From Streptomyces sp. NBC_00654 (GTDB lineage Bacteria > Actinomycetota > Actinomycetes > Streptomycetales > Streptomycetaceae), in NCBI RefSeq assembly GCF_026341775.1, contig NZ_JAPEOB010000002.1, positions 434,001 through 498,000 of the forward strand: a DNA stretch of 64,000 bases, read 5' to 3'. This document shows positions 42,904 through 58,536 of the stretch, in pieces. The stretch's first letter is position 1, and each line of letters starts with the position of its first letter. The notes below the pieces were generated by a model, which was given only the letters and a program-made list of their open reading frames with translations, searched no databases and had not been told where the DNA came from. The position numbers and the translations under genes are program-made.

Positions 42904-43215
42904 ACCCTCGACGGATCAGAACCTGGGCGGGAGAGACCCAGGACCGTCAGATGAACATCACGATGAACATCCCAGAAGGCTAGCACGCCCTCTCCGCGCG
43001 GCGCCGGGGCGATTCTCGTGCCCGTGGCCCACCCGGGGTGACGTCCGAGCCGACCGCGGCGATTCCACGCCCGTGACCCCATCCACCGGCGAACCCCGCC
43101 TCCGTGGTGCCGCCGCGGCCACCGCCGGACCGGCACGAGCCGCACACTGCGGCGGCAGCGGTGCGGTGGGACGCGGCTCGTCCGGCGACCGGGGCCAGGG
43201 ACGGTGGAGACGTGC

Positions 43216-43248
43216 GCGGGCCCTGCCGGGGTGTCCGGCAGGGCCCGC
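43216..43248 (-). terminator. Terminator hairpin of the lectin-like gene
   Basis: Perfect 14-base arms (43216-43229 and 43235-43248) with a five-base loop, 26 bases beyond the stop codon of the minus-strand gene. The rest of 42904-43215 shows no gene. Confidence 0.75.
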
Positions 43249-43273
43249 CCCGCACACCGGTCGGATCAGCGGA

Positions 43274-43528
43274 TCACTCGACCCGCGTCCCCCGGTAGCC
43301 CACCGGCCCCTCTCCGGGGAACTGGGCGGACCCATGGAACGAGCTGCCGCCGTCGAAGAAGGTGACGCTGCCGTTTCCCGCGTCGCTGGACCAGGTGACG
43401 GTCGTGCCGGTGGAGGGAGCACCGTCCGCGGGAACGACCTCTGCGCGGTTGGCCAGGGAGAGCGTGAGCGGCTCGTCCGGCTGCCACCCTCCCCCGCCAG
43501 TGTGAATCTCGGTCTCGTACGTAGCCAT
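43274..43528 (-). CDS. Small OAA-like lectin-fold protein
   Basis: An 84-residue protein without signal peptide. The end FPGEGPVGYRGTRVE and the preceding GNGSVTFFDGGSSFHG resemble the repeat of the Oscillatoria agardhii agglutinin family (YAGEGPIGFRAT in the prototype). It would form a single small beta-barrel binding glycans. An AAGGAG site precedes the ATG. It stands alone. The family call is by motif only. Confidence 0.6.
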   Translation of the reverse strand: MATYETEIHTGGGGWQPDEPLTLSLANRAEVVPADGAPSTGTTVTWSSDAGNGSVTFFDGGSSFHGSAQFPGEGPVGYRGTRVE

Positions 43529-43970
43529 GTCCGCTCCTTGCTCCTCGGTTCGGCCAGCACGGTTCGAAGGACTGCTGTGCTGCCCCCACCAGAGTCAGAC
43601 GTTCGGGCACCCGCATCCCCAACAACCGGACACAAACCACACCTTCGGCTGGTCCCCCGGGCCTCGTGGCATGTCGGCGTCGGACAGTCGGTACGTCGCG
43701 TTTCCCGTAGGGACGCCATGGGTCGGCTCACCGAAGAGCCGCGTATCCGGGCGCGCCCTGAAGGCCACCACGATCGCTCCCCCGCACTCGCTGTCCGGTT
43801 GCCGGTCAAGAGAGCGACCGGCGGGGTCCTTTGGGCGTCGGGCCGGCTGCCGCCCCAGCCGGCCAGCATACAGCTTCCCTGGGAGGGGAAACGTTCGGGA
43901 CGGCAGTCGGCCTGTCCGTCACCGGCCCCGTCCGGGATGCTGAAGGCCAGGCTAGACAGGGAGGCAGACG
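43529..43970. other. Divergent intergenic region
   Basis: About 440 bases holding the promoters of the lectin-like gene (left) and the hypothetical gene (right). No gene or clear structure is recognised. Confidence 0.4.
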
Positions 43971-44366
43971 GTGTATACGGAACCTATGGCGCGAGCCGTT
44001 GTGGAACCAGCAGTACTCAAGCTGATACGGCAATACCCCCGTGGCAGGTCGTTCGCCACGACGGTCACATTCGGCGGGGACGACTTCAGCATGTGCGCCC
44101 ACATACGGGTGCGGTGGGCGGCACCCGGGCAGGTGGAGATCGCGCTGGCCTGTTGGGTCGTCAACATGGACACCGCGCGCTACTTCGGTGACAACCCACC
44201 TGCCAGGGACGAGATGCGCCTGCCACCGGAAGGCACAGCGGAGTGGGACGAGGAGCTGACCGGCCGGGTGATCGGCCACCTCGCAGCCCGTATGAAAGCG
44301 CCGGCCACCGCCCTGCCGACCCCCGACGAACACCTCACCATCACCGTGCCTCTCGTGCTGACGTAG
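43971..44366 (+). CDS. Hypothetical protein
   Basis: A 131-residue acidic soluble protein. GTG 43971 has a GGGAGG site six bases upstream; the internal ATG at 43986 lacks one. The sequence AHIRVRWAAPGQVEIALACW and HLTITVPLVLT suggests beta strands around a helical middle. No family recognised. A G/C-rich imperfect hairpin follows at about 44390-44425. Confidence 0.6.
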   Translation: MYTEPMARAVVEPAVLKLIRQYPRGRSFATTVTFGGDDFSMCAHIRVRWAAPGQVEIALACWVVNMDTARYFGDNPPARDEMRLPPEGTAEWDEELTGRVIGHLAARMKAPATALPTPDEHLTITVPLVLT

Positions 44367-44761
44367 TCCGGTCGAAGGGTCGGCCACGCAACGCCCGGGG
44401 GCGCCCCGGCCCGGCCCCGGGGGCCCCGGCCCGGACCGCACACACGCCCACCGGGCCATCGCCGCCCTCGTCTCCCGACCGCGCCGCCCAGCGGTCCCCC
44501 CGGCACAGGACGCGTACCGGACCCGTGCCCGTCCGCACGACGGCCCGCTGAATCACCCACCGGCCAACTCCCCAGGCCGACACGCCTCATGATCAATCGC
44601 GGGCAGCCCGTTACTCGATGGTCAGCGTGAAGAACCTGACAGTGGGCGGGAAGGGGGATACCCGACGCGCTCAGGGCGGTGACGCGGCGCGGCCTCGCCG
44701 TTCCCCCAGCCAAGTGGCGGCGGCGCCGGTCGAGGGCGACCATGGTTGAGGGGATGACGCC
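44367..44761. other. Intergenic region before the TIR relic
   Basis: About 400 bases of very GC-rich DNA without a supported gene. The end (44740-44761) has a GAGGGG ribosome-site-like run before the relic start. Confidence 0.4.
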
Positions 44762-44833
44762 ATGAAGGTATTCATCTCCTGATCCGGAGATCTGAGCGAA
44801 GAAATCGGGCGGATCCTCACCGACAGCGCTCCG
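44762..44833 (+). pseudogene. 5' relic of a TIR-domain gene
   Basis: ATG 44762 begins MKVFIS, then TGA at the place of the conserved Trp, then SGDLSEEIGRILTD. The consensus start of bacterial TIR domains is MKVFISWSG followed by an amphipathic helix. A GAGGGG site stands at the right distance. After residue 25 no TIR sequence continues, so only the 5' end remains, with a Trp-to-stop change. Confidence 0.55.
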
Positions 44834-44978
44834 GCGGAGCAGCCGCCGATCAGCGGCCCCGAGAGTGCGAGCGGCTCAAGACTCGGCCACCCGCACTGCT
44901 TGCGAGCCTCATGCGCTGCTGCGTGTCGGGGCGGTCGAGGAGGCAGGCGCGCCGGCAACCGGACGCCCTCGTCTCCCC

Positions 44979-45020
44979 CGGTGCACGGTGCTCGGTGCGC
45001 GGTGCGCGGTGCTCGGTGTT
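44979..45020. repeat. Six heptamer tandem repeats
   Basis: CGGTGCN units repeat six times without gap (the last is CGGTGTT). Direct repeats of CACAGCGCG follow at 45059-45085. They lie in the spacer between the TIR relic and the seven-gene operon. Confidence 0.7.
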
Positions 45021-45185
45021 CGGCGCAGGACGCCGACGTACGCACATTTCGCGCACGGACACAGCGCGCACCGGCACAGCGCGTACGGGCAGCCATGACG
45101 ATCTCAGCGGGTCGCCCGGGAGAACCGGTGCGCCCCATGCTCTCCGGAACGCAGACCGGCGCCCCGCCCCACGACGGCGCGTCCG

Positions 45186-45219
45186 GGTCGCATGTACACC
45201 GCGGTCGCATGTACACCGC
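45186..45219 (+). promoter_or_regulatory. Perfect 17-bp tandem repeat before the seven-gene operon
   Basis: GGTCGCATGTACACCGC occurs twice in direct succession (45186-45202 and 45203-45219), 19 bases before the first start codon. Each copy contains the palindrome TGTACA. Position and exactness suggest a regulator binding site or a leader element. Confidence 0.65.
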
Positions 45220-45237
45220 CAGGGAAGGGGCCGACCC

Positions 45238-46404
45238 ATGCCTGCCACCACCGTCGACTGCGACGTGGTCTTCTTCGACCTGCGCGACACTCTCGGAGAC
45301 GTCGACCGGCCCGGTCATCTCGCGTTGTATCGGCCCAGCACCGAGAAGTTGCTCGACGCCATGCGGGATCTGGTGGGACTGCGGGTCGGCGTGATCACCA
45401 ACCTGCCCGCGGAGGTCAGCGCCGAGCAGGGACATCGGATGATCGCCGAGGCCGTCGTCACCGAACACAACGGCAGCGTCGTCCACCTCGCCGACATCCT
45501 GGACCCTCAAGGCATCGTGATCAACCACGAGGCCAAGCTGGACAAGCCCGATCCCGCCATCTACCGATTCGCGGCCGATCAGATGCGCGTACCGATCGAG
45601 CGGTGCCTGTTCGTCGGGGAGAACCTCATCGAAGTCCTCGCCGCCCAGGCGGCCGGTATGCGAGGCCTGCTCAAGCCGTCGCCACCCGGCAAGGAATTCC
45701 AGCCCGCGGTGATCACGCGCCACGGGATGTCGGTCCGCGACAGTGGCCGTGCTTTCGAGGAGGTCCTCAAACAGGAGCATCTGCTCGGCGAACGCATCTT
45801 CGCGTGTGGCAGCCGAATCGTCAAAGCACTCGACTCGGTGCACCGGGCACAGGACATTCCGCCGGAAGTGCGCACCGCGATGGGGATGTTCGTCTACACG
45901 CTCACCAACTTCGCGGACCAGGCGCACCTGAAGGCCGAGGAAGCGATCGTGCCACTGGCCGTCGCGCGCGGCATGCCGCCCGAGCATGCCCGCTGGATGT
46001 TCGACCAGCACGACCAGGCCCGCGCCTATTGGGAGGCGATCCGCGTCGCCTGGCAACGGATCCAGAACGGCGACCCCGGCGACGTGTCCTACGCGATCTC
46101 CGACTTCCGCCGCTGCACGGAGGGCTTCGTCCTGCTCTTCCGGTCGCATGCGGTGCGCGAGAACGACGAGCTGTATCCGGAGCTGGGCCGCTACCTCACC
46201 GACGCGGACGACGCGACCGTGCTCGGCATCGTCCGCCACACCGGCCCGCCGGACATCGGCCCCTACGCGGCGATCGTCGGCGCGACGGAAGAGGCGCTCG
46301 ACAACGCGGACAGCCCGGACGACGCGCACGGCACGGACGGGGCGGACGGGGCGGACAGGACGGACGGGGCGGACGGGGCGACCCGGATCGCCGGAAAGGG
46401 CTGA
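45238..46404 (+). CDS. HAD-like / hemerythrin-like fusion protein
   Basis: First gene of the operon, 388 residues. Residues 1-160 form a HAD-fold domain with FFDLRDTLGD (nucleophile Asp 14, Thr 18), GVITNLP, KPDPAIYRF and CLFVGENLIEVLAAQAAGM. Asp +2 of motif I is Arg 16 and the motif IV Asp is Glu/Asn, so normal phosphatase chemistry is doubtful. Residues 210-340 look like a hemerythrin/HHE bundle (TNFADQAHLKAEEAIVPL, FDQHDQARAYWEAI, RSHAVRENDELYPEL), able to bind a di-iron centre. The C-terminus is a GAD-rich linker. GAAGGGG ribosome site. Confidence 0.8.
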   Translation: MPATTVDCDVVFFDLRDTLGDVDRPGHLALYRPSTEKLLDAMRDLVGLRVGVITNLPAEVSAEQGHRMIAEAVVTEHNGSVVHLADILDPQGIVINHEAKLDKPDPAIYRFAADQMRVPIERCLFVGENLIEVLAAQAAGMRGLLKPSPPGKEFQPAVITRHGMSVRDSGRAFEEVLKQEHLLGERIFACGSRIVKALDSVHRAQDIPPEVRTAMGMFVYTLTNFADQAHLKAEEAIVPLAVARGMPPEHARWMFDQHDQARAYWEAIRVAWQRIQNGDPGDVSYAISDFRRCTEGFVLLFRSHAVRENDELYPELGRYLTDADDATVLGIVRHTGPPDIGPYAAIVGATEEALDNADSPDDAHGTDGADGADRTDGADGATRIAGKG

Positions 46405-46406
46405 CC

Positions 46407-46931
46407 ATGTGGATCCTCCGACCGCCCGACACCAGCGGTTTCGACACGGACCAGCGGCAAACCGTGGAGGTGCTCTTCGACGCGATCCTGCCCGGCGGCG
46501 CCCGGCGGCCCGGCGCGGCCGACGCCGATGCCGCCGAATACGTCGACCGGCTCCTGGCCATGGGCCCCGGGACGCATCCGGAGATTCCGGCGTGGCGCCT
46601 GGCCTACCCGGTGCTGCTCGCCGCTCTCGACACCGCCGCGCGACAGGCGCACGCCGGACGCGGCGTCACCGCACTCGACCGGGCCGAGGCCACCGTGCTG
46701 CTGCGCGACCTGGCTGCGGGGACCCTGCCCGACTGGCCCGCAGACGCTCTCGCCCAGCCGGCCGCGTTCGCCCTGCTGCGGGCCCACTGCATCGAGGGCT
46801 GCTTCGGGGACCCGCGCTGGGGCGGCAACCACGAAGCGGTGATCTGGCGCTGGTACGGCTATCTCACACCGGCCGAACCGTTCACCCGCCCCACCGTCCT
46901 GACCGCCGGCCGGCCCGGGGAGGGCTCATGA
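46407..46931 (+). CDS. Gluconate-2-dehydrogenase subunit-3-like protein
   Basis: A 174-residue protein with the subunit 3 signature near its end (GCFGDPRWGGNHEAVIWRWY) and helices before it (TDQRQTVEVLFDAILPGG, EYVDRLLAMGP). In known systems the small subunit carries a twin-arginine signal and escorts a GMC dehydrogenase to the periplasm. Here no signal is seen, so the complex should be cytoplasmic. It starts two bases after the previous stop and overlaps the GMC gene by four bases, which supports a heterodimer. Confidence 0.85.
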   Translation: MWILRPPDTSGFDTDQRQTVEVLFDAILPGGARRPGAADADAAEYVDRLLAMGPGTHPEIPAWRLAYPVLLAALDTAARQAHAGRGVTALDRAEATVLLRDLAAGTLPDWPADALAQPAAFALLRAHCIEGCFGDPRWGGNHEAVIWRWYGYLTPAEPFTRPTVLTAGRPGEGS

Positions 46932-48598
46932 CCGCCACGACCGACGCACCCGGCGCATACGACGTGATCGTCGTGGGAGCCGGCGCGGGCGGCGGCACCG
47001 CGGCCCGCGTGCTCACCGCGCGAGGACGCCGCGTCGCCGTGCTGGAGAAGGGCCCGCTCCCGGCATCCGACGATTTCCTTCCGTACGACGAACTCCACTT
47101 CCATACGCACAAGACACTCATCCCGCACCGCGACACCGACCCCAACATCTACATGGCCGGCCCGGCCCAGGACCGGCCCACCCGGGTCGAGCGCTGGTGG
47201 AACGTCAACATGGCCGGCGGCGCGACGAACGTGTGGGACGCCAACGTGCCCCGCTACACCGAGGAGGACTTCCGCGTCCTGGACCACCTGCATGACGTGC
47301 CGCCCGACGCGGACATGGTGAACTGGCCGTGGAGCTATCGCGAGTTCGAGCCGTGGTTCGAGCGGGCCGAGTACGAATGGGGCGTCTCCGGGCGGGCCCG
47401 GCAGTCCCCCGCTCAGGAACCGATCCGGTCCGGATACGACTACGCGATGCCGCCGCTGCGCCCGCACGCGGCCGTGCCGTTCCTCACCGAGGCGTTCGGC
47501 CGCGCCGGAATGCGGCCCTACCTCGGGCCCCGCGCCATCAACTCCCGGGTGTACGACGGCCGTCCGGCCTGCTCGTTCTGCGGCTTCAACCAGTTCTTCG
47601 GCTGCGCTCTCAACTCACGGGCCTCGGCGCTGAACACGGTGCTCCAGCGTGCCTTGGCCACCGGCCGGTGCGACCTGCTGACCGGACACTGCGTGACCCG
47701 GCTCGTCCATGAGAACGGGCGGGTGCGCGGCGTGATGTACCGCACCGAGCCCGGCGGGCCCGAACGGTTCCTTGGGGCGTCCCAGGTGGTGGTGTCCATC
47801 CAGACCATCGAGTCGGCGCGGCTGTTCCTCGTGTCGCAGGTGCCCGACCCCAACCGGATGATCGGCCACTATCTGACGTATCACACCCACGGGAACGCCG
47901 AACTCACCTTCCCGCTCCAGCCCGTGTGGACCGGCGGCGGCGACCGACAGCCCTCCACCGCGATCGGCTCACTGCAGCTGCGCGACCTGTACGTGGTCGA
48001 CGACCCCGCCACCCCGGTCACCAAGGCCGGCAAGTTCTCCGTGTACGACCCCTACACGTGTGTGCCGCCGGTCCGGCTCGTGAAGGGCGCCGCGCTCGGA
48101 CCCGGCCGCGGCGGTCTGTGGGGCGAGGACCTGTACACCTACCTCGACGAACTGCGGCACCAGGGCGGCGTCTACTTCTCCTTCACGGGCGAGGCGCTCT
48201 CCCTGTACGACAACCGGGTCGAACTCGACCCCGACGTCACCGATCCGTGGGGCATGCCCGCCGCCCGGATCTGGTACCGGCACCACAGCTACGACCTGGC
48301 CGCGGCCCGCTACGCCATCGATCGTGTGGTGCGGGTGATGGGGGAAGCGGGCGGCGAGCTGCGCGGCTACGACGTTCCCGGCGCGGAGAACCCCGGCTAC
48401 GGACACGTACAGGGCACACTGCGCGCCGGCACCGATCCCGACGCCTCCGTACTCGACGAGAACTGCCAGTCGCACACCGTCTCCGGACTCTATGTCCTCG
48501 ACTGCGCGTTCATGCCGACCGCCGGTGCCTCGAACCCCACCCTCACGCTCCTCGCCAACGCCTACCGGGTGTGCGAGCAGCTCCCTGACCCCGGCTGA
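46928..48598 (+). CDS. GMC-family FAD-dependent oxidoreductase
   Basis: A 556-residue enzyme oxidising alcohols or sugars. The FAD motif VIVVGAGAGGGTAARVL is at the start, NMAGGATNVWDANVPRY is the flavin-loop region, and the C-terminal SHTVSGLYVLDCAFMPTAG with ASNPTLTLLANAYR is the GMC catalytic end. CSFCGFNQFFGC is a Cys cluster also seen in the sugar/sorbitol-dehydrogenase branch. Its ATG overlaps the previous stop (ATGA). It pairs with the subunit-3-like protein. Electron acceptor unknown. Confidence 0.9.
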   Translation: MTATTDAPGAYDVIVVGAGAGGGTAARVLTARGRRVAVLEKGPLPASDDFLPYDELHFHTHKTLIPHRDTDPNIYMAGPAQDRPTRVERWWNVNMAGGATNVWDANVPRYTEEDFRVLDHLHDVPPDADMVNWPWSYREFEPWFERAEYEWGVSGRARQSPAQEPIRSGYDYAMPPLRPHAAVPFLTEAFGRAGMRPYLGPRAINSRVYDGRPACSFCGFNQFFGCALNSRASALNTVLQRALATGRCDLLTGHCVTRLVHENGRVRGVMYRTEPGGPERFLGASQVVVSIQTIESARLFLVSQVPDPNRMIGHYLTYHTHGNAELTFPLQPVWTGGGDRQPSTAIGSLQLRDLYVVDDPATPVTKAGKFSVYDPYTCVPPVRLVKGAALGPGRGGLWGEDLYTYLDELRHQGGVYFSFTGEALSLYDNRVELDPDVTDPWGMPAARIWYRHHSYDLAAARYAIDRVVRVMGEAGGELRGYDVPGAENPGYGHVQGTLRAGTDPDASVLDENCQSHTVSGLYVLDCAFMPTAGASNPTLTLLANAYRVCEQLPDPG

Positions 48599-48686
48599 GG
48601 CGCAGGTCCTCGACGAGCCACCGGCACACCGAGCGACCCGCACACCGGCTCCGGGCGAACCGGGAATCGATTCGAAAGGCAGCATC

Positions 48687-49895
48687 ATGGACACCCTCGA
48701 CGAGCGAGTCGACATCGCCCGCGCACTGCTGTCCGCCGGGGTAACCCAGGCGGACCTCGAACTGTCGCCCGACCTGGCCGCGGCGCCGGAAGGCCCCGTC
48801 CTCGCCGCCGATCTCGGGATCGTCTTCCCCGACGGGCTCGCGCCCGTCCCTCAGCCGTTCGACGTCGAGCCGTCCCCCGACGCCGCGCTGCCTCGCGCGG
48901 ACATCGTCGTGATCACCTGGACCGTCGCCGAACAGAACGCCCTCGCGGATGTGTTCACCCAGGGATTCGGGCGGCTGCGCTGGTATCGGTACACACGCCG
49001 CTTCGAGGAGCACTACCGGCCGCTGATCAGAGGCGGAGCGCCCTCGCTCTCCGCCCGCCCACCGCGCCTGGGCTCGTACTTCCCCGTCAAGCTCGGCGAC
49101 CTGGACGTGCTGTGCGTGAAGTCCGAACTCCACCTCAATCAGGACGGTCTCAAGACCGGTGAAGGCACCGCCACCCTGCCCGTCCGGGACTTCTTCGAGC
49201 AGATCATCGAGGAGGTCCGGCCGCGGGTGATCGCCACCATCGGCACCTCGGGCAGCGTCTTCGGCGAGTTCCCCCTGGGCGATGTGGTGGTCACACGCGC
49301 GGCGAAGTTCCGCTGCCAGAAGGAGTTTCGCAACGATGAGTTCAACGGCCGCGCGTTCCAGTGCGACTGGAGCCTCCCGCTCGGCCGCATCGACGAGGCG
49401 CAGAAGATGATGCGCGGCTTCTCCGACCGGCTCACCGAACCGCCGTTCGGCCCGCCGTCCACCCGCTTCCCCTTCGTCGGACCGCTGCTCGTGCCGCCCG
49501 ACAACGAGCCGACCGTCCGCATCGAGCAGGGCGCCCGGGACATGCCCGAGTTCCACCCGATCCTGACCACCGACTACTTCGAGTACGGCACGTCCACGAA
49601 CGGCCTGGAACAGGAGGGGGCAGCCGTCGAGATGGGCGACGCGGCGCTCGGGCTGGCCTGCGCCGACCTCACCGACGCGGGTTCGGACCACGTGCCCGAC
49701 TGGGTGGTGGTCCGTAACATGTCCGACCCCCAGATCAACGGCGAACTCCCCACTCGCGAGTTCCGTCTCAACCAGCAGACCATGTGGGCGGTGGCCTACT
49801 ACGAGGCGTACGGCTACTGGACCAGCGTCTGCGGCGCGCTCACCACCTGGGGCCTGCTCGCGGGAGTCTCCGAGGCGGGCTTCGACCATGCCTGA
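48687..49895 (+). CDS. Nucleoside-phosphorylase-superfamily protein
   Basis: A 402-residue protein with the PNP/MTA-nucleosidase fold. ADIVVITWTVAEQNALADVF begins the domain, RVIATIGTSGSVFGEFPLGD the phosphate/ribose loop, and AAVEMGDAALGLACADL with WVVVRNMSDPQINGE the nucleoside-binding end (the M-E/D pattern is MG-D here). It is longer than housekeeping enzymes (about 230-300). Such domains appear both in salvage enzymes and in bacterial conflict effectors. An AAAGGC site precedes the start, 88 bases after the GMC stop. Confidence 0.8.
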   Translation: MDTLDERVDIARALLSAGVTQADLELSPDLAAAPEGPVLAADLGIVFPDGLAPVPQPFDVEPSPDAALPRADIVVITWTVAEQNALADVFTQGFGRLRWYRYTRRFEEHYRPLIRGGAPSLSARPPRLGSYFPVKLGDLDVLCVKSELHLNQDGLKTGEGTATLPVRDFFEQIIEEVRPRVIATIGTSGSVFGEFPLGDVVVTRAAKFRCQKEFRNDEFNGRAFQCDWSLPLGRIDEAQKMMRGFSDRLTEPPFGPPSTRFPFVGPLLVPPDNEPTVRIEQGARDMPEFHPILTTDYFEYGTSTNGLEQEGAAVEMGDAALGLACADLTDAGSDHVPDWVVVRNMSDPQINGELPTREFRLNQQTMWAVAYYEAYGYWTSVCGALTTWGLLAGVSEAGFDHA

Positions 49896-51189
49896 CCCGC
49901 CGGCCGTCACCCGGCTCCCCATCGAGGTCGAGCTGCTGTTCGAGCTGATGCCGTGCAATGCGCTGCGCACCTCGCAGTACGCCGGACCAGGAGCCCATCC
50001 GTGCGCGTACTTCCGCTCGTGGGGTACGTATCACTCGTACGACTACGACGCCGACGGGCCGCCGCCGGACGCCTCGATCGTGCGGCCCTCGCACTACACG
50101 GGCCGGATGACCCCGCTGCCGGAACCGCTGTCCGGTTGCCGCAAGGCCCCGATCCTCGCCGTCGGCATCAACCCCAACCTCCCGGGCTGGTGGCCCGACA
50201 GCCACGGCTCGCTCACCCCCGACTTCGACTCCGTGCGCCAGTACGCGCACTACTTCCGGCACCGAGGGGTGTTCAAGCCCGAGCTGCCCGAGGACGCGTA
50301 CCGCGCCTTCGGCGGCGGACCCGACGACGATCCCCTGGCCGGGGTCCCGCTGAGCGTTCCCGAGGACGCGCAGGGCCGCCACGGGATCCCGGTCCGCGAA
50401 CAGCCGCAGCGCATGTACCTCGTCTACCAGCGACTGCTGGACGCCCTCGGCGCCGAACTGGGCCTCGACCGGGGCACGCTCGCCGTCGGCGAGGATCTGT
50501 CGTACGGCAACATGGTCGCCTGCGCCTCGGCCAAGTGGACCACCCGTAGCGATCCGGACGACCCCCGTCTTCCGCCGATGACCGACGACCAGCGCGTCGG
50601 GATCGTCGGTGAGTGCTTCCGCACCCGCCGCCATCTGCTGCGCCAGATGTTCCAGTCGCTGCCGGCCGTGATCCTCGTGCTCGGACAGAGCACCGCCAAC
50701 GCGTTCACCGGCGAACTCGGCGACCGCCTGGCGCCGGTCCCGGCTCCGGACACCCCCATGGCGCAGCTGATGGCGACCGAGATCCGGCTCACCTACGGCA
50801 CCCTCGACGACGGCGAGGAACTCGACGCCCGGGTGCTCTTCGCCCCGCATCCCACCGGGCACCCCGACGACTACGCGCGGGCCCGGCCGCTGCTCGTCGA
50901 ACAGCTCCTGCACGAGGCCCGCTCCGGCCGGCTGGCTCAGGACGAACGCATCGGGCACCTGACGCGCCCCCGCGGCTCGTGCTCCTTCTGTCCGCTGCTC
51001 GACATCGGCCCGTGCCCGTACGCCGAGGTGCTCACACCGCTCCCGGGCGGCGGCCCCGCCCTGCTCGCCGACGGAACAGCGCCCGGCGGGGCGGAGAAAC
51101 GCACCCAGCTGCGGCTGCTCGACGGGATCACCGAGCGGGCCGCACCCGTCGCCGAGGTCTGGGCACACACCGACGACCGGGAGGACTGA
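49888..51189 (+). CDS. Cys-rich protein with uracil-DNA-glycosylase-like motifs
   Basis: A 433-residue protein overlapping the previous stop by eight bases. The segments APILAVGINPNLPGWWPDSH, PAVILVLGQSTANAF and VLFAPHPTGHPDDYARARP resemble motif A, the central strand and the His motif B of the UDG superfamily. Cys residues cluster at both ends (MPCNALRT, AHPCAYF; GSCSFCPLLDIGPCPY), as in Fe-S-containing family 4/5 glycosylases. Identity to a known family is not certain. It may bind nucleobases or nucleotides. Confidence 0.5.
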   Translation: MPDPPAVTRLPIEVELLFELMPCNALRTSQYAGPGAHPCAYFRSWGTYHSYDYDADGPPPDASIVRPSHYTGRMTPLPEPLSGCRKAPILAVGINPNLPGWWPDSHGSLTPDFDSVRQYAHYFRHRGVFKPELPEDAYRAFGGGPDDDPLAGVPLSVPEDAQGRHGIPVREQPQRMYLVYQRLLDALGAELGLDRGTLAVGEDLSYGNMVACASAKWTTRSDPDDPRLPPMTDDQRVGIVGECFRTRRHLLRQMFQSLPAVILVLGQSTANAFTGELGDRLAPVPAPDTPMAQLMATEIRLTYGTLDDGEELDARVLFAPHPTGHPDDYARARPLLVEQLLHEARSGRLAQDERIGHLTRPRGSCSFCPLLDIGPCPYAEVLTPLPGGGPALLADGTAPGGAEKRTQLRLLDGITERAAPVAEVWAHTDDRED

Positions 51190-51237
51190 CACCGAAGCGC
51201 CCCATCAGTGCCACCACCCTCCGAAAGCGAGACCACG

Positions 51238-53781
51238 ATGTCCGGCAGAGCCGACTCCGAGGGAGCCCCCGACAGGCAGTACCGCATCGCCGTCTACTTC
51301 GACACCGACCCGGAGGCCGAGCGCATCGAGGCGATCGTCGGGGACCGGGCGCACCGCTACCAGGGGGTCGTCCTCGCCGAGACCTCCGGGGAGCGGATCG
51401 CCCGGCTTCGCGCGGCCGGCCGCATCGTCGATGTCCGCGCCGATCTCACAGCCGAACACGCGGCCCGGAACGAGTCCACCGCGACGGACGCCCCGCCCGG
51501 CAGTGACGGCCCGCAGAGCATGCTGCCTCCGTGCGGGGCGGGCGCCTCCGGCACCACCGACCGGGCGGCTCCGGACCCGGAGTTCGTGGCGGACCTCACC
51601 GAACGTGCCGTGGACGCGTACGCACAGGACGCGGCCGGTACGGAGGGCGCGGTGCCCCTTGCCGTCCCGTCGGGCGAGCCGGACCACAACACCTTTCTGG
51701 TACGTCTGCGAGGACCGCTGGACCGGACCCGCCGCGCCGTCCTCTCCGGCATCGGTGCCCACGTCGTACAGTTCCAGCCGCCCGGAACCTACCGGCTCCG
51801 CCTCACCCCCGGGCAACGCGACCTGGTCGCCGGCCTGCCGTGGGTGACCGCGGTGCGCCCGTGGGGCCTCGCCGACACGGTCACGCCCGCGCTCGACGAC
51901 GCGCTCGCCCCGGCGGCCCCGGGTGCCGCCGGTCCGCGGCTGCTCGCCGACGAGGGCGTCGCCGCTCCGGACCCCTACCTCGATACGTTCGACGTTCTTG
52001 TGCACGATGCCCTCGACCTCGCCACGCTCCGGCCCGTTCTCGAAGCCACGCCCGGTGTCGAGGTGCTCGCCGCCGTCGATGTGATGCTGCGCTTTCGCAC
52101 CGACCTGACCGGGGACCGGCGGCGCGACCTGCTCGCCGTCGTCGCCGCCCGGGACGAAACCCGTCAGGTCTCCCCCTATCGGCCGCCGCTGCTCTATGCC
52201 GACCATGCCCGCCGGCTGGTCGGCGTGGACCGCGTCGGACCGCGGGCCGACGTCGCCGAGCCGCCGGCCCAGGTGCCCTGGACCGGGACGGGCGAGATCG
52301 TCGGCGTGTTCGACAGCGGCGTCGACGGCACCCACCCCGACCTCGTCGACCGCATCGTCGTCAACGAATCCCTGGTCGGGGGTGAGGCGTTCGACTTCTG
52401 CGGCCACGGCACCCATGTGGCCGGCATCGTCGTCGGCTCCGGTGCGGCGAGCGGTGGCCTGATCACCGGTGTCGCCCCCGGCGCCCGGCTGGCCGTGTTC
52501 CGCGTCTTCGACGAGGACAACCGCCTGCACGTGGGCCCCAGTCTGGGCCCGATGCTCACCCGTGCCGTCGACGCGGGAGCCCACATCATCAACCTCAGCT
52601 GGGGCAACCCGCTGTCGGGCACCTACGACCAGTACTCGCTCGCCGTGGACAGCTTCGTCGCCGAGCATCCCGATGTCCTCGTCATCGTCGCGGCCGGCAA
52701 CAGCGGTGTCGCGCCCAAGGGGACCCATGAGTTCAACACCTGCGGCACCCCCGCCACCGCCAAGAACGCGCTCACCGTCGGCGCGTGCACCACCGACCGC
52801 GACAACGACGGCCTCGCCGATCTGACCTGGAACCGCTTCCGTCAACCCCAGTTCCCGCTGCCGCCGGCCGGCGGCGAGCATGTGTGCGGCAACCCCGACC
52901 TGCCTGCCGCGATCAGCAGCCGGGGCCCCAGCGACTACGGCAGTGTCGTGCCGCACCTTCTCGCCCCGGGCACCTTCGTGCTCTCGGCCCGCAGCAGCAG
53001 CGCGCGGATGGACCCGCGGCTCCCCTGGCGTGACTCCCCCGACCACGACGGGCACTACATGTACATCGGCGGCACCAGCATGGCCGCTCCCGTCGTCGCC
53101 GGTGCCGCCGCCGTCCTCCGGCAGTACCTGCGCGAGGTCCGCCGGCTCACTTCGCCCTCCGCCGCGCTCATGAAAGCCGTCCTCATCGCCGCGACGCGCC
53201 GCCTGCCCTCGCTGCGTACGCCGCACACCGCACAGGATCTCGGCTACCCCGACTTCGACCAGGGCTTCGGGCGGCTGGACCTGGCCATCGTCCTGCCCAC
53301 CCCCGACGCGCCGGCGGATCGCCGGCTCGTGTGGGCCGATCTGTCCGACGCCGATCCCGGCGCGCTCGAAGCGTTCGCGGACCCGGAGGGCACCCGGCGC
53401 GGCAGCCACACGTACCGCCTCACCGTGCCGGACGGCCCCCACACCGACGACCTGAGAGTCGTCCTGGCCTGGACCGACCGCCCCGGCAACGCCGTGCAGA
53501 ACAACCTCGACCTCGCGGTGACCACACCGGACGGCACCATTCATGCCGGCAACGAGGAGCACACCTACAACAAGGTCCCCGGCTTCGACCGCAACGCCGT
53601 GGCGCAGCTCACCGGTCTCCCGCTCGACCGCGCCAACACGGTCGAAGCCGTCCGGATCGGCAACCCGGCGCCCGGCACCTACTCGATCAAGGTGTTCGCG
53701 CAGAACACGCCCTTCCCCGCACAGGGTTACGCGGTGTGCGCCGCCGGTCCGATCAGCGAAGAGGAGCTGACGACACCATGA
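51238..53781 (+). CDS. Cytoplasmic subtilisin-like (S8) peptidase
   Basis: An 847-residue protease with the complete triad: Asp 359 in VGVFDSGVDGTHPDL, His 390 in GHGTHVAGIVVG, Ser 614 in GGTSMAAPVVAGAA, plus the oxyanion Asn in IVAAGNSG. A 340-residue N-terminal extension contains two repeats of alternating strands. No signal peptide is present (start MSGRADSEGAPDRQYRIAVY), unusual for Streptomyces subtilases. The last 130 residues are a beta-rich P-domain-like end. Its stop overlaps the next start by four bases. Confidence 0.9.
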   Translation: MSGRADSEGAPDRQYRIAVYFDTDPEAERIEAIVGDRAHRYQGVVLAETSGERIARLRAAGRIVDVRADLTAEHAARNESTATDAPPGSDGPQSMLPPCGAGASGTTDRAAPDPEFVADLTERAVDAYAQDAAGTEGAVPLAVPSGEPDHNTFLVRLRGPLDRTRRAVLSGIGAHVVQFQPPGTYRLRLTPGQRDLVAGLPWVTAVRPWGLADTVTPALDDALAPAAPGAAGPRLLADEGVAAPDPYLDTFDVLVHDALDLATLRPVLEATPGVEVLAAVDVMLRFRTDLTGDRRRDLLAVVAARDETRQVSPYRPPLLYADHARRLVGVDRVGPRADVAEPPAQVPWTGTGEIVGVFDSGVDGTHPDLVDRIVVNESLVGGEAFDFCGHGTHVAGIVVGSGAASGGLITGVAPGARLAVFRVFDEDNRLHVGPSLGPMLTRAVDAGAHIINLSWGNPLSGTYDQYSLAVDSFVAEHPDVLVIVAAGNSGVAPKGTHEFNTCGTPATAKNALTVGACTTDRDNDGLADLTWNRFRQPQFPLPPAGGEHVCGNPDLPAAISSRGPSDYGSVVPHLLAPGTFVLSARSSSARMDPRLPWRDSPDHDGHYMYIGGTSMAAPVVAGAAAVLRQYLREVRRLTSPSAALMKAVLIAATRRLPSLRTPHTAQDLGYPDFDQGFGRLDLAIVLPTPDAPADRRLVWADLSDADPGALEAFADPEGTRRGSHTYRLTVPDGPHTDDLRVVLAWTDRPGNAVQNNLDLAVTTPDGTIHAGNEEHTYNKVPGFDRNAVAQLTGLPLDRANTVEAVRIGNPAPGTYSIKVFAQNTPFPAQGYAVCAAGPISEEELTTP

Positions 53782-55397
53782 GGATCGCCGCAGTCGGCGG
53801 CAACGCCCTGCACGCCCCGCCCCACACCCGTACCGCGCTGACGTCCGCCTACGTCCAGGGCGCCGACATCCTCGTCTTCGACGTCGCCGTGACCGCGGAC
53901 GGACGCGTCGTGCCCGGCTCCGATCAGGGGCTGCCCCGCCAGGCCGGCTCGACGGCCTCCGTCGGCGAACTCACCTTCACCCGACTGCGCGCGCTCGACC
54001 TGAGCGCGGTCTTCAGACCGCGCGGCTCCCCGGACTTCCGCTACCGGCCCCAGGGCCACGCGCCCGTGCGCGCCGAGGCCCTCGACGACCTCCTCGACGC
54101 TCTGCCCGACGACCTCACCTATGTGGTGCGGGTGAGCACCGGAGGCGCGGACACGGTCGCCGCCGTCATGGACGTCTTCACCCGCCGGGCCGCCACCGCA
54201 CGTCTCGTCGTCGCCGCGTCCGACCCCGCTCTGCTGCGCCACGCGCGTGGGCTCGACCTCGATGTGGGCACCGCGCTGACCGGACCCACGCTGCACGGCC
54301 CCGGTGCCGGACCCGACCCGGGCGCGCTCGACACGGCCCTCGGGGACGGGGCTCTCGACCTGGTCCTCGCCGGCCTCGACGATCTGATCGGCCCCGACGG
54401 CCGGCCCACCGGCCTCGGCCTCCGGCTCGGCGAGGCCCGACACACGAAGGACGTGCGGCTCGGCGTCCTGGTCCTGCCCCGGGCCGACCGGGGCATCGAT
54501 GACTTCGCGCTCGCCGCAGCGCAGCCGTATACGTGGGCCGTCGGTACGGAGTCCACCTTCGACACCGCCGAAACCCTTCGCCCCGGTACCCGCCGGCTCG
54601 ACGAGACCTTCGCCGGCACCCACATCGACACCCGCCGCTACGCGCTCGGCTACGCCAAGGCCAACGCGTACTGCCACGTCTTCCAGGACGACGGCATCCA
54701 CGTTCGTATCACCCCCTACACGGGCGACCCCCAGCCGCCCCGGCCCGCCGACCCGGTCGAGCGCCGCCTCGCCGGGCTGGAGGAGCGCACCTGGGACGCC
54801 CTCGGCGACTGGCCGTTCTACAGCGGCGGCGGCTTCGGCGTGGTCCACGGTCTGCGCGGCGACTTCGCCGCCGAGGTGCGGGTCGACTCGGCCGTGGCGG
54901 CCCAGGCCACCATGTGCGAGATGGCGGCGGTCAACGCCGACCCCGGCACACACCGCCCGCCGTACAACGACGACGGCTCGCCGTGGTTCCCGCGGTCCTT
55001 CCGGGACAAAGACGCCTTCTACGACCCCCACGGCGCACCACCGTTCGTCGGCGCCGAGCACGACGAGGACGACGGCTACCGGATCAACTGGAACCTGGGC
55101 ACGCTCTACGACACCAACCAGTACGGGCCGCCCGTCGGCGACGGGCGCGTACTCGCGGCCCGGCTGCGGCTGGAGCGGCGCGGCGCCTGCTTCGCCGCGT
55201 ACACCCGCAACGACGTCGATGCCCACGACTGGGTGTGCGTCGGGACGGTGCGCAACGACTCGATGAACGAGACCGTGCACCTGCGGTGCTCCGGGAAACG
55301 GTGGCGCCAGGAGGACGCGGCCGATCCGACGCGCTACATGCCGATACAGGCCAACGAGTTCGTCTTCCGGAACCTGCGCATCACGTGTTACTACTGA
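53778..55397 (+). CDS. GDPD-like TIM-barrel protein with altered active site
   Basis: A 539-residue protein, last of the operon. The opening IAAVGGNALHAPPHTRTALT, SAYVQGADILVFDVAVTADG and RVVPGSDQGLPRQAG follow the glycerophosphodiester-phosphodiesterase pattern. However, the HRG His, the E-x-D Glu and the H-D His are replaced (VGGN, FDV, GSD). A second domain (about 300-539) is beta-rich with many Asp/Asn/Trp and ends NLRITCYY. It is probably a non-catalytic or differently catalytic relative. ATGA overlap with the peptidase. Confidence 0.7.
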   Translation: MRIAAVGGNALHAPPHTRTALTSAYVQGADILVFDVAVTADGRVVPGSDQGLPRQAGSTASVGELTFTRLRALDLSAVFRPRGSPDFRYRPQGHAPVRAEALDDLLDALPDDLTYVVRVSTGGADTVAAVMDVFTRRAATARLVVAASDPALLRHARGLDLDVGTALTGPTLHGPGAGPDPGALDTALGDGALDLVLAGLDDLIGPDGRPTGLGLRLGEARHTKDVRLGVLVLPRADRGIDDFALAAAQPYTWAVGTESTFDTAETLRPGTRRLDETFAGTHIDTRRYALGYAKANAYCHVFQDDGIHVRITPYTGDPQPPRPADPVERRLAGLEERTWDALGDWPFYSGGGFGVVHGLRGDFAAEVRVDSAVAAQATMCEMAAVNADPGTHRPPYNDDGSPWFPRSFRDKDAFYDPHGAPPFVGAEHDEDDGYRINWNLGTLYDTNQYGPPVGDGRVLAARLRLERRGACFAAYTRNDVDAHDWVCVGTVRNDSMNETVHLRCSGKRWRQEDAADPTRYMPIQANEFVFRNLRITCYY

Positions 55398-55463
55398 GCG
55401 CACCGGTTCGGCGGTACCTTCGCCGTATTGCCTCACGGCCCCGGTGCCTGGGACCGTGGCCCC

Positions 55464-55763
55464 ATGGTCGACACCCACTCGCGCGGATACCTGCTCGCGG
55501 CCCGCAGGATGTTCTGGTCCGGTGTATCGCTGTTCGGGCTCGGCCTGGCGGCCGGCTGGTCCGCTACGGGTCGCTGGGCGACATCATGGGACTGCGACCC
55601 GACATGCCGGCCCGGGACCAGCACCACGTGGCACGTCATCGAATTCACGGCCCTTGCGGTCATCGTGCTCGGGACCGCGCTCGCAGTGTCCGCGTTCTTG
55701 ATGATCATGCTCCGTCGACCGCGTCCCCGGCCGGAGAGCGACAGCTCTCGGGCGACGGAGTAG
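55464..55763 (+). CDS. Small two-helix membrane protein
   Basis: A 99-residue protein: MVDTHSRGYLLAARRMFWSG, a first hydrophobic helix (17-35), a Cys pair DCDPTC, a second helix (55-80, ALAVIVLGTALAVSAFLMIM) and a basic C-terminus. It starts 66 bases after the operon and may or may not belong to it. No family recognised. Confidence 0.6.
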   Translation: MVDTHSRGYLLAARRMFWSGVSLFGLGLAAGWSATGRWATSWDCDPTCRPGTSTTWHVIEFTALAVIVLGTALAVSAFLMIMLRRPRPRPESDSSRATE

Positions 55764-56115
55764 ACGCGTTCCCGCACCATGAACGAGTGGATACCGCAAA
55801 CGGGTTGATACGGCGAACGGGTTGATACGGCGGACTGTGGTGGGCGCCGCGGAGTGGTCCGGCGGTCAACTGCGGGAAGGGAACGGGTTGTCCGCTCCGG
55901 TGGACAGCGGGCCAGGCCTCGCGGCCGTGCCAGTGCGCCTGCGGCACGGCCTCCCGCGCTCCAGGGTCCGGCCCGCTGTCGAGGGCTCGGCGAGCGGTGC
56001 GGCGAGGACGGCCGCGATATCGGCTCGGTTCACTTCACCCGGGCCGGTGGTCTCCGCGAGGCGGACCCTGGAGGGAACAGCGAGCGGTCGTTCCGTGGCC
56101 GTGGCCAGGTCGCGC
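55764..56115. other. Intergenic region between converging units
   Basis: About 350 bases. It contains the 17-bp tandem repeats (55783-55833) and no supported gene. Long frames here have no ribosome site. Confidence 0.4.
55783..55833. repeat. Three tandem 17-bp repeats
   Basis: ACGGGTTGATACGGCGA (55800-55816) and its near-identical copy (55817-55833) are preceded by a degenerate copy (55783-55799, 13 of 17 matching). The tandem 17-base period recalls iterons or operator arrays. Confidence 0.75.
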
Positions 56116-56676
56116 CTACCCGGGCAGTTCCTCGGCCGCGGCGAAGGTCACTTCGGACGCGGGGAGCACGCGGATGCTCCGCCCGGGGAAACCGAGGTTC
56201 CGGAAGATCTCGTTGTGGTGCGCGATCGACCGCCCGGGCGCGGCGTACTCGCCGCTGTCGGGCCGGACGGACGTGGTGTGCCCGTCGGCGACCAGCACCA
56301 GGTCGTACTGGTGGCTCAGCGCCTGTCGCGCCGTGGTGTCCACACAGATCTCGGTCGCGAACCCGGTGACGACCACCTCGGTGATGCCCCGCGCCTTCAG
56401 GACCGTGTCGAGGTCGGTGCCCAGGAAGCTGTCCGGACTGCTCTTGTGGACGACGGTCTCGCCGGCGGCGGGCGCGAGTTCGGGCACGATCCGCCAGCCC
56501 TCGGTCCCGGCCTCCAGCCCGGCACCCCGGTCCTGGATCGTGACGACCGGTATGCCGGCGGCTGTGGCGCGTTCACGCAGGCCGACGATCACGGCGACGG
56601 TCTCGGCGGCCCGGTGGGCGATGGCCACCGGGCCGTTCTGCATGTCGATGACGAGGAGCGCGGAAGCGTGTGACAT
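56116..56676 (-). CDS. Isochorismatase-family cysteine hydrolase
   Basis: A 186-residue hydrolase with the full triad Asp 11 (LLVIDMQNG), Lys 78 (VVHKSSPDSF) and Cys 111 (VVTGFATEICVDTTARQAL). Nicotinamidases and isochorismatases share this fold; the substrate cannot be told. It starts four bases after the end of the alpha-glucosidase gene on the same strand, so it is likely co-transcribed. Confidence 0.9.
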   Translation of the reverse strand: MSHASALLVIDMQNGPVAIAHRAAETVAVIVGLRERATAAGIPVVTIQDRGAGLEAGTEGWRIVPELAPAAGETVVHKSSPDSFLGTDLDTVLKARGITEVVVTGFATEICVDTTARQALSHQYDLVLVADGHTTSVRPDSGEYAAPGRSIAHHNEIFRNLGFPGRSIRVLPASEVTFAAAEELPG

Positions 56677-56680
56677 GGGG

Positions 56681-58366
56681 TCACGGTAGCGGCTCCCCTC
56701 CGGGCAGCGGCATGATCACGGAGTTCCCGCCCGTCACCTCGATCGCCGTCCGTCCCGGTGCCGGGGAGCGCAGCCACACCGCCGTGTCGCGGGGCAGCCG
56801 GCCCTCGGCGTCCAGTGGGCCGCTGGACAGGATCAGTTCCCCGTACGCCGGGAGGGCGGCGGGCTCGTCGGAGAGGTTGACGACGCACATCAGGCCATGC
56901 CCGCGGGTGAAGGCCAGGACACCGTCGCCGGCCGGGAGCCAGGTCAGCGGTCCGTCGCCGAAGCCCTCGGCGGTTCTGCGCTGCCGGAGGGCCTCGTGGT
57001 AGAGCGCGAGCATCGAACCGGGGTCCGCGCGCTGCCGGTCGACCGCGTAGCGGGACCAGTCCCGGGGCTGGGGCAGCCATGGCTCGGACGTCGAACCGAA
57101 TCCGTACGAAGGCGCTTCGGCGTTCCAGGGCAGCGGGACACGGCAGCCGTCCCGCCCGGGGTCGGTGCCACCGGATCGGGCGTGCATGGGGTCCTGGATG
57201 CGGTCGCGGGGGATGTCGGCCTCGGGCAGACCGAGTTCCTCCCCCTGGTAGAGGTAGACCGATCCGGGCAGGGCGAGGGTCAGCATCGCGGCGGCGCGGG
57301 CGCGCCGGGTGCCGAGGCCGAGGTCCGTGGGGGTGGCGAAGGCCTTCGTGGCGAAGTCGAAGCCGGTGTCCTCGCGCCCGTAGCGGGTGACCGTGCGGGT
57401 CACATCGTGGTTGCACAGGACCCAGGTCGCGGGGGCGCCGACGGGGGCGTGTTCGGCGAGGGTGTCGTCGATGGTCCGGCGGAGCCGGTCCGCGGCCCAG
57501 GGGCAGGCGAGAAAGTTGAAGTTGAACGCGGTGTGGAGCTCGTCGGGGCGGAGATAGCGGGCGAAGCGCTCGGTGTCCGGCAGCCAGACCTCGCCGACGA
57601 AGACTCCGTCGTACTCGTCGGCTATGGCGCGCCAGGACCGGTAGATGTCGTGGAGTTCGTCCTGGTCGATGTACGGGTGGGGGTCGACGCCCTCGGTGAA
57701 GTCGGCCAGTGCCGGGTCCTTGGCGAGCAGGGCGGCCGAGTCGATCCGTACGCCCGCGACTCCGCGCTCGAACCAGAAGCGGAGGATGGATTCGTGTTCC
57801 GCGCGGACCGCCCGGTGGGCCCAGTTGAGGTCCGGCTGTTCGGGGGTGAAGAGGTGCAGGTACCACTCGCCGTCCGCGACGCGGGTCCAGGTCTGCCCGG
57901 AGAACTGGGAGGGCCAGGTGTTGGGCGGGAGCTCTCCGTTCTCCCCGCAGCCGGGCCGGAAGTGGAAGAGCTCCCGCTCGGGGCTGCCGGGGCCGGCCTC
58001 CAGTGCGGCACGGAACCAGGCGTGCTGGTCGGAGACATGGTTGGGGACGATGTCGACGATGACCCGGATGCCGAGCTCCCGGGCTTCGGCGATCAGCTTC
58101 TCGGCCTCGGCGAGCGTACCGAAGGCGGGGTCGATGGTGCGGTAGTCGGCGACGTCGTAGCCGCCGTCCACCAGCGGGGAGAGGTACCAGGGCGTGAACC
58201 AGACCGCGTCGACGCCGAGTTCGGCGAGGTAGGGCAGTCTCGCCCGGACACCCGCGAGGTCTCCGGTGCCGTCACCGTCACCGTCGGCGAAACTGCGCGG
58301 GTACACCTGGTAGATGACGGCGTCGCGCCACCAGTCGTCGGTGCGAAGCAAGTGAGGGGCTGCCAT
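56681..58366 (-). CDS. GH13 alpha-glucosidase
   Basis: A 561-residue cytoplasmic enzyme hydrolysing alpha-glucosides. AVIYQVYPRSFADGDGDGTG is the opening, VIVDIVPNHVSDQH conserved region I, GVAGVRIDSAALL the nucleophile Asp, VFVGEVWLPD the acid/base Glu and WVLCNHDVTR the transition-state Asp. No signal peptide is seen, so it acts on imported sugars. Upstream lie the stump of a sugar ABC permease and a LacI gene, the usual setting of maltose/agl operons. ATG 58366 starts it. Confidence 0.93.
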   Translation of the reverse strand: MAAPHLLRTDDWWRDAVIYQVYPRSFADGDGDGTGDLAGVRARLPYLAELGVDAVWFTPWYLSPLVDGGYDVADYRTIDPAFGTLAEAEKLIAEARELGIRVIVDIVPNHVSDQHAWFRAALEAGPGSPERELFHFRPGCGENGELPPNTWPSQFSGQTWTRVADGEWYLHLFTPEQPDLNWAHRAVRAEHESILRFWFERGVAGVRIDSAALLAKDPALADFTEGVDPHPYIDQDELHDIYRSWRAIADEYDGVFVGEVWLPDTERFARYLRPDELHTAFNFNFLACPWAADRLRRTIDDTLAEHAPVGAPATWVLCNHDVTRTVTRYGREDTGFDFATKAFATPTDLGLGTRRARAAAMLTLALPGSVYLYQGEELGLPEADIPRDRIQDPMHARSGGTDPGRDGCRVPLPWNAEAPSYGFGSTSEPWLPQPRDWSRYAVDRQRADPGSMLALYHEALRQRRTAEGFGDGPLTWLPAGDGVLAFTRGHGLMCVVNLSDEPAALPAYGELILSSGPLDAEGRLPRDTAVWLRSPAPGRTAIEVTGGNSVIMPLPGGEPLP

Positions 58367-58437
58367 GTGACGGTCCTTTCGGGCAGTTCGGGTGTTCTCC
58401 GGGTGCGGGGCTCGTGGCCGGGGGCGGCATGCGCCGG

Positions 58438-58536
58438 TCAGCCCTTGAGGCCGCCGTCGGTGAGGCCGCTCATGATGTTGCGCTGGAAGACCAGGAAGAT
58501 GAGCAGGGTCGGGAAGGAGGATTCTGGCGATGAATG
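58438..58536 (-). pseudogene. C-terminal stump of a sugar ABC permease (MalG type)
   Basis: Reading SFPTLLIFLVFQRNIMSGL and then TDGGLKG before the stop at 58438-58440, this is the invariant end of MalG/AglG-like permeases. Only about 30 residues remain. The rest of the permease, its partner and the sugar-binding protein are absent. The junction at about 58536 abuts an AT-rich patch (58545-58580) unlike the rest of the window. Confidence 0.8.

Follow-up and report, generated by a model that had tools for sequence, protein, structure and literature searches.

A mobile gene cassette shared by Streptomyces and distant bacteria, with a constant PNP-like/UDG-like gene pair and a possible role in nucleobase processing

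In Streptomyces sp. NBC_00654 (9.6 Mb in 15 contigs) a 64,000-nucleotide stretch of contig NZ_JAPEOB010000002.1, hereafter the window, carries between positions 45238 and 55397 seven genes of the + strand, designated A to G (Table 1), and the question that this locus raises is which process would bring together seven proteins whose domains are rarely joined. A preliminary description had recognised that unusual combination and hesitated between a cytoplasmic redox or nucleoside pathway and an island for defence or programmed death. The seven co-directional genes and their domains were confirmed here by gene calling—the boundaries being those obtained from codon-position GC—and by Pfam, with E assigned through an AlphaFold2 model and fold comparison and D through a profile; the rarity of the combination was likewise borne out. 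The tight packing described earlier, in which four junctions overlap or lie within two bases, holds for four of the six: A/B has a 2-nt gap, B/C a 4-nt overlap, D/E an 8-nt overlap and F/G a 4-nt overlap, the C/D and E/F gaps being 88 and 18 nt. Our answer is that the cassette is a real, conserved and mobile system, whose genes, predicted folds, motifs, co-inheritance and mobility are demonstrated in this analysis, and that it would serve, at even odds (a probability of about 0.5), to remove and break down inside the cell a modified nucleobase or nucleoside, probably one that is sugar-decorated or oxidised. No known system matched the set in Pfam, NCBIfam or PADLOC scans, and among the open-licence PMC papers listed by the literature searches, where an absence is no proof, none described it.

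The comparison of loci identified D and E, and not the oxidoreductases, as the constant heart of the set. The 14 E-bearing loci compared, namely the window plus L006 to L018, cover Actinomycetota, Acidobacteria, Pseudomonadota, a deltaproteobacterial metagenome-assembled genome (MAG) and Thermodesulfobacteriota, and in all 14 D lies directly 5′ of E. A relative of C occurs in 11 of the 14 (close in 8, the L007 copy being truncated, and distant, at about 27% identity, in L013, L014 and L015; none was found in L008, L010 and L011), G in 10 (the L007 copy with an internal deletion), and F in 8 (as two annotated genes in L018), plus remnants in L006 and L016, while A and B each occur in 7 by tblastn, in addition to a B-like gene in L015 and a HAD domain in L011; these absences may be overstated because contig ends cut some of the loci. 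Co-occurrence of the whole set in other genomes, which the preliminary description had proposed as a test, was found: all seven genes recur in L009 and in a conjugative Azospirillum plasmid (L018), so that 3 of the 14 loci, the window included, are complete. Gene order varies, with G before D in L011, L013, L014, L015 and L018, the five non-streptomycete loci that possess it, and last in the streptomycetes. The clustering goes beyond chance because the same genes adjoin in other phyla, an observation that upholds the earlier view of a co-inherited unit; and the strong conservation of the D–E pair across phyla would therefore denote a strong, specific chemistry at work.

Table 1. Genes of the cassette and the adjacent repeat, in window coordinates
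Feature	Position	Strand	Length	Assignment	Basis
Gene A	45238..46404	+	388 aa	HAD-like domain fused to hemerythrin-type bundle	Pfam PF00702, PF01814; homologue alignment
Gene B	46407..46931	+	174 aa	Gluconate 2-dehydrogenase subunit 3 (gamma-type) family	Pfam PF13618; hydropathy
Gene C	46928..48598	+	556 aa	GMC flavoprotein nearest FAD glucose dehydrogenase	Pfam; 8hdd/6a2u, E-value 1e-27
Gene D	48687..49895	+	402 aa	PNP/MTAN-fold protein	Pfam, alignment, profile
Gene E	49888..51189	+	433 aa	UDG-superfamily protein, GINPN motif, seven invariant Cys	Alignment; AlphaFold2 and fold comparison
Gene F	51208..53781	+	857 aa	S8 peptidase with long N-terminal region	Pfam, hydropathy, structure match
Gene G	53778..55397	+	539 aa	Degenerate GDPD barrel plus L-type-lectin/ConA-like domain	Pfam, alignments
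Tandem repeat	45186..45219	+	17 nt, perfect, x2	GGTCGCATGTACACCGC, immediately 5′ of gene A

Regarding distribution, 323 of 7995 scored candidates were relatives of E at an E-value of 1e-3 or below, and 1070 of 7998 were relatives of D; the hosts named among the 120 E relatives listed included Solirubrobacteraceae, Longimicrobium, Corallococcus and Devosia, most entries having no named host. Full-length E was present in 3 of 295 Streptomyces genomes (one further match being a 67-residue piece) and D in 3 of 392, the same three; E was found in 1 of 394 genomes sampled from the class, and of 396 genomes from the phylum 3 contained D, if a weak partial match is counted. A collection of species genomes, searched with two peptide patterns, contained 12 loci, and two plasmid records matched E, one alone over 80% of E. 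Neither phage records nor IMG/VR contigs contained a relative of E, on which ground a phage-borne origin of the cassette was rejected.

The cassette moves horizontally between hosts, a conclusion that we draw from this patchy spread, from the plasmid and from the two Mesorhizobium loci (L012 and L017), whose E and D are only 46% and 39% identical to one another: against the acidobacterial copy, E and D reach 55% and 61% identity in L012, and 49% and 43% in L017. The six streptomycete loci have only two clusters of flank proteins in common, each shared by two loci. Synonymous divergence (dS) gives weak support to a recent transfer within the streptomycetes: for A, B, C, D, E and G of this genome against S. 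hyaluromycini or S. lucensis it was 0.13–0.24, the controls being 0.37 for gyrB, 0.49–0.55 for a gyrB-like gene and 0.23 for part of rpoB; between S. hyaluromycini and S. lucensis it was 0.17–0.20 for the cassette, 0.22 for gyrB and 0.12 for rpoB; and a copy in another genus, Embleya, lay at 0.18–0.25 from that of the window, a comparison without a housekeeping control for Embleya. All pairwise ratios of non-synonymous to synonymous divergence (dN/dS) fell within 0.12–0.67. The identity matrices of D and E were correlated (r of 0.96 over all 14 loci, and 0.80 over the 36 pairs left with one streptomycete). When the two flanks of the cassette were searched against 31 genomes, its own included, no clean empty site was found: outside G000 the left flank gave only short, low-score matches (the best of 83 bits), and the right flank aligned well with relatives only from about position 56765 of the window, in the amylase gene.

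Gene E had no Pfam match, nor did a sequence profile find relatives in the PDB at an E-value up to 1. The AlphaFold2 model, together with fold comparison, supports the alpha/beta fold of the uracil-DNA glycosylases (UDGs) and places the protein near family 4 in fold, with a GINP motif of the Mug/TDG kind. The residues G93, I94, N95, P96 and N97 are invariant in 39 of 39 aligned rows, over which the mean column identity is 67%; also invariant are seven cysteines (23, 39, 84, 243, 365, 368 and 376). Family-4 UDGs carry a Glu in motif I and four cysteines for an iron–sulphur (Fe–S) cluster, including an N-terminal CxxC; the spacing of the seven in E is a different one. With family-4 UDG and UdgX the modelled protein would share the alpha/beta fold, whereas its motif I is GINPN and not of the Glu type, and its 433 residues include insertions and a Cys-rich C-terminal part.

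Gene D, for its part, belongs by profile with the purine nucleoside phosphorylases (PNPs) and the 5′-methylthioadenosine/S-adenosylhomocysteine (MTA/SAH) nucleosidases (MTANs), the best structure being the MTA/SAH nucleosidase 6if8 (E-value 4e-5). In that alignment VEMGDA falls on VEME, and RN-SD on the R-x-x-S-D of MTAN. In common with MTA/SAH nucleosidase and DeoD PNP the protein retains the G-T-x-G loop and, as R-N-x-S-D, the motif that holds the catalytic Asp (R343, S346 and D347, present in 30 of 30 rows); it differs from them in its 402 residues with insertions, in its sub-threshold Pfam score and in the E-M-E motif, which reads E-M-G-D in all 30 rows, a Gly having invariably replaced a Glu. 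That Glu we take, from the PNP/MTAN literature, to be the binder of the ribose hydroxyls, and the retained Asp to be the catalytic one.

Other hosts add members that point in the same direction. In L013, L014, L015 and L018 the E protein runs on into an amidohydrolase domain, a length class of 129 proteins; 120 of them were listed, among them the query's own record, and 119 of these have the corresponding Pfam domain; the better NCBIfam models were guanine deaminase, TRZ/ATZ hydrolase, 5′-deoxyadenosine deaminase and 8-oxoguanine deaminase, and the best solved relative was an MTA/SAH deaminase (4f0r). A UNG-like protein with the motif GQDPYP, above the Pfam UDG cut-off, is encoded in L013 and L015, pieces of it persisting as 192 residues in L018 (where the incomplete PLSDB gene table lacks it) and as a 41-residue remnant in L014. 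L011 carries a HAD–amidohydrolase fusion, which therefore ties the HAD domain of gene A to the same theme. The predicted theme of the most constant and of the extra members is thus the cutting or altering of nucleobases inside the cell.

The preliminary description had also proposed A, B and C as a coherent redox unit, and this was borne out, with C and B resembling the alpha and gamma subunits of the flavin adenine dinucleotide (FAD)-dependent glucose dehydrogenase. Gene C, with Pfam scores of 76.6 bits for the GMC C domain and 45.5 bits for the N domain, aligns over its full length with 8hdd and 6a2u, weaker alignments having been obtained to fructose dehydrogenase, pyranose oxidase and a paromomycin-type oxidase; its cysteines line up with those in the Fe–S region of the glucose dehydrogenase, where we take that enzyme's cluster to be located, and C is thus inferred to bind a cluster of its own. 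Gene B scores 60.6 bits against Gluconate_2-dh3 and adjoins C as a gamma-type partner. The gamma subunits of FAD glucose dehydrogenases carry an export signal; B, in contrast, has none by hydropathy (N-terminal maximum of 0.53), nor did hydropathy indicate a signal peptide or a membrane segment in any of A to G (the top 19-residue mean being 1.59, and 1.38 within residues 1–58). Furthermore, none of the seven genes encodes a cytochrome c, and in the place of such a gene stands gene A, which scores 38 bits as a HAD hydrolase and 26.8 bits, against a cut-off of 25.3, as a hemerythrin. In A the HAD motif I is D-L-R-D-T, the acid/base Asp being replaced by Arg, and an alignment that included four full homologues and the HAD start of the L011 amidohydrolase fusion reads D-[LVI]-R-D-T in its five A-type rows; such a motif is not that of a phosphatase, and therefore A is unlikely to act as one.

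Gene F scores 157.5 bits as a Peptidase_S8, and its peptidase and C-terminal parts resemble KP-43 (1wmd), the nearest solved structure; hydropathy agrees with the earlier description of a peptidase without signal. F returned matches in PADLOC and NCBIfam, and although it shares the S8 domain with IetS and other S8 peptidases, an identity with IetS was ruled out at 55.8 bits against a cut-off of 900, nor did an IetA-like partner emerge, no ATPase having been matched by Pfam among the seven proteins or the ten flank proteins of the window. In two streptomycete copies, L006 and L016, F is reduced to remnants (L006:11332-11787 and L016:11336-11476), and in L007 it was not found, the GMC and GDPD-like genes being cut as well (L007:7971-11941); in all three loci D and E are intact.

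In gene G the Pfam match to glycerophosphodiester phosphodiesterase (GDPD) amounts to 28.3 bits over residues 13–81 only, and the protein divides into a degenerate barrel at about residues 1–270 and an L-type-lectin/concanavalin A (ConA)-like domain at about 270–539. The first catalytic His of GDPD is absent from 9 of 9 rows and the second from 8 of 9, being retained in L011; by alignment to 2pz0 the catalytic residues missing from the window copy are both His and Glu, one Asp being kept. By these alignments G is a predicted pseudo-GDPD, which departs from the enzyme in its lost His, Glu and His as well as in the added lectin-like domain. A 3-keto-disaccharide hydrolase identity for the C-terminal domain was not confirmed, since the rows seen, L-type lectins and GH43/ConA-like domains, were indecisive either way. 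The altered HAD motif I, GDPD His and Glu, and PNP ribose Glu together bear out the unusual active sites noted earlier.

Assembled into one scheme, these proteins would operate as follows. The Asn of the GINPN motif of E, a predicted UDG-fold glycosylase, would activate water and cut a base from nucleic acid or from a nucleotide; D, with Gly for the ribose Glu, would cleave the matching nucleoside with its altered sugar; and the amidohydrolase fused to E, where present, would deaminate the freed purine. C and B, as a putative Fe–S and FAD sugar-dehydrogenase type, would oxidise a sugar hydroxyl, with the hemerythrin bundle of A perhaps acting as their iron or oxygen partner; the lectin-like domain of G would bind the sugar, and F would process or clear a protein partner. 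Of the two readings left side by side in the preliminary description, the metabolic one is thus favoured, in the form of nucleobase or nucleoside processing, and the programmed-death island found no support. The identity of the substrate would bring to light either a modified nucleoside of soil bacteria not described before or a new way to attack foreign DNA; and the D–E pair is directly testable, a natural minimal version, D and E only within the DNA covered, being available in an acidobacterial MAG.

Several points weigh against this nucleobase-processing scheme. At the level of the set, A, B, C, F and G are optional members, L010 having only D–E and L008 only D–E–F within the DNA covered; L036, a 6.3-kb actinobacterial MAG contig, has D without E; and the dN/dS of B attains the upper value of 0.67. 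At the level of the assignments, the Foldseek TM-scores of E with UDGs are low (0.26 by query and about 0.49 by target), because E carries large insertions; D reaches 21.9 bits with PNP_UDP_1, under the cut-off of 25.1; the NCBIfam scores of the amidohydrolase are all far under cut-off, and the UNG-like protein is under the ung cut-offs of the same collection. The amidohydrolase and UNG-like parts have, moreover, no match in the window, to which the L011 fusion aligns through its HAD end alone, at gene A. As to the chemistry, UDGs usually take pyrimidines and the relatives of the PNP and the deaminase purines, F and G are hard to place in a pathway that processes bases, and we know of no activity for any member of the cassette.

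Among the rivals of that scheme—immunity, the making of a metabolite, and the breakdown of a glycoside—immunity comes first, as a tentative alternative: E and the UNG-like protein would excise modified bases from invading phage or plasmid DNA, leaving it to C/B, D, G and the amidohydrolase to unmask or destroy the decorated base, in the manner of Brig3 with BapA. This alternative overlaps with the scheme preferred here, because immunity would be a purpose for the same mechanism. In their papers (PMC11078745, PMC13160076), Brig1 and Brig3–BapA are anti-phage glycosylases from soil DNA, the core of Brig3 being likened to human AAG; compared by description only, they recall the cassette in their UDG superfamily, in the association of a glycosylase with a helper enzyme in an operon and in their soil sources, whereas the cassette has seven or more genes and no defence island was recognised at its loci. 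The ten flank proteins of the window are metabolic, regulatory or without Pfam match (an AMP-binding enzyme, a methyltransferase, a DUF418 protein, a major facilitator superfamily (MFS) protein, an isochorismatase, an amylase, a LacI regulator, a histidine phosphatase and two unmatched open reading frames), with no recognised defence gene among them by Pfam. In a sample of 103 flank proteins selected from 13 loci and scanned with PADLOC at 1e-10, 15 families—mad2, mad3, mad8, QatA, AriA, MkoA, MkoC, DpdJ and Aga_Nuclease among them—were matched by one protein each, a raw count without a background rate, and some of the loci may thus lie in a defence neighbourhood; of the 30 scanned singly, only two matched, one of L010 with four families and one of L008 with one, a desaturase-like model. 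Among 25 listed of the 149 Pfam families of the flanks, MFS and DDE transposases were the commonest, with three proteins each. PADLOC matched D weakly and A, B, C, E and G not at all. The absence of relatives from the phage and IMG/VR collections speaks likewise against immunity, as does the very strong conservation of E, a feature unlike most immune genes. We rate as unlikely the more far-reaching proposal of a new bacterial immunity in which E and the UNG-like protein, as paired glycosylases, would excise the glycosylated or otherwise hypermodified bases of invading DNA, while C/B/A, G, D and the amidohydrolase would oxidise them, strip their sugar and deaminate them, so that the phage could neither hide behind modified bases nor recycle them.

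That the genes would tailor or build a specialised metabolite akin to a nucleoside or an aminoglycoside, in which C would oxidise a hydroxyl of the sugar and F would trim a peptide portion, is doubtful: Streptomyces and Corallococcus among the hosts, the match of C to the GMC aminoglycoside oxidase 7dve (E-value 2.6e-12), the sporadic and mobile spread, and the occurrence of the AMP-binding enzyme and the methyltransferase within 9 kb 5′ in the window would all agree with it, yet none of the seven was recognised by Pfam as a transporter, a pathway regulator or a core synthase, the core is very conserved across phyla, and the flanks of the 12 fetched loci and of the window have no consistently recurring protein family, the shared proteins beside the cassette being either without Pfam match or the UNG-like one. 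We hold in similar doubt an operon that would degrade or detoxify an imported glycoside or N-glycoside, in which C/B would oxidise the sugar along a 3-keto route and G and D would cut; the sugar-dehydrogenase type of C/B, the lectin/ConA-like domain of G, a GMC_C plus 3-keto-disaccharide hydrolase protein close to the Azospirillum cassette, and the amylase gene and LacI-type regulator just 3′ of the cassette on the opposite strand would fit such an operon, but neither an uptake system nor a regulator of sugar use is among the seven genes, the export signal that its relatives carry is missing from B, and two UDG-type proteins would have no role there. Finally, the programmed-death or toxin island, with the S8, PNP and UDG domains as effectors, is very improbable: peptidase, nucleosidase and glycosylase domains do act as effectors in other systems, and F is reduced or was not found beside an intact D–E in L006, L016 and L007, but no sensor, NTPase or antitoxin-like gene was recognised by Pfam among the seven, F remains below the IetS cut-off, and the persistence of D–E without F also counts against it.

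As to the surroundings of the cassette, the 17-nt tandem repeat 5′ of gene A is a possible control element, although it is not repeated in three other aligned streptomycete upstream regions. No known RNA element reached the gathering threshold within 40000–60000 of the window, and the repeat search yielded nothing convincing that would flank the whole cassette; a repeated 45-base match near 44444-44488 was seen in one relative's genome, and an IS110-family transposase lies at 20440-21654 of the window, about 24 kb 5′ of the cassette. In L036 the D relative (L036:2098-3333) has, as judged by eye, a phosphorylase-like gene on one side and a recombinase-like frame on the other. The Azospirillum plasmid carries a type I-E CRISPR locus at a distance of about 25 kb from the cassette. 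Two large proteins 3′ of the acidobacterial D–E (L010:16547-19204 and L010:19271-21232), matched by CARF-linked, MkoA, MkoC and DpdJ models of PADLOC, are the only locus-assigned flank proteins with defence-type names among the 30 scanned singly. Upstream of the Azospirillum cassette (L018:2255-4800 and L018:4869-7733) there are perhaps further members, namely an M4 metallopeptidase, a protein of 954 aa that Pfam does not match, and the GMC_C plus 3-keto-disaccharide hydrolase protein. In Massilia and Methylocystaceae (L013:5430-6260 and L014:6024-6851) the gene of a conserved protein, about 275 aa long and unmatched in Pfam, separates the distant GMC gene from the remaining cassette. Lastly, both Mesorhizobium cassettes share a protein of about 312 aa (L012:4433-5368 and L017:7540-8481), which in L017 lies inside the operon and whose L012 copy, without Pfam match, looks repeat-like by eye.

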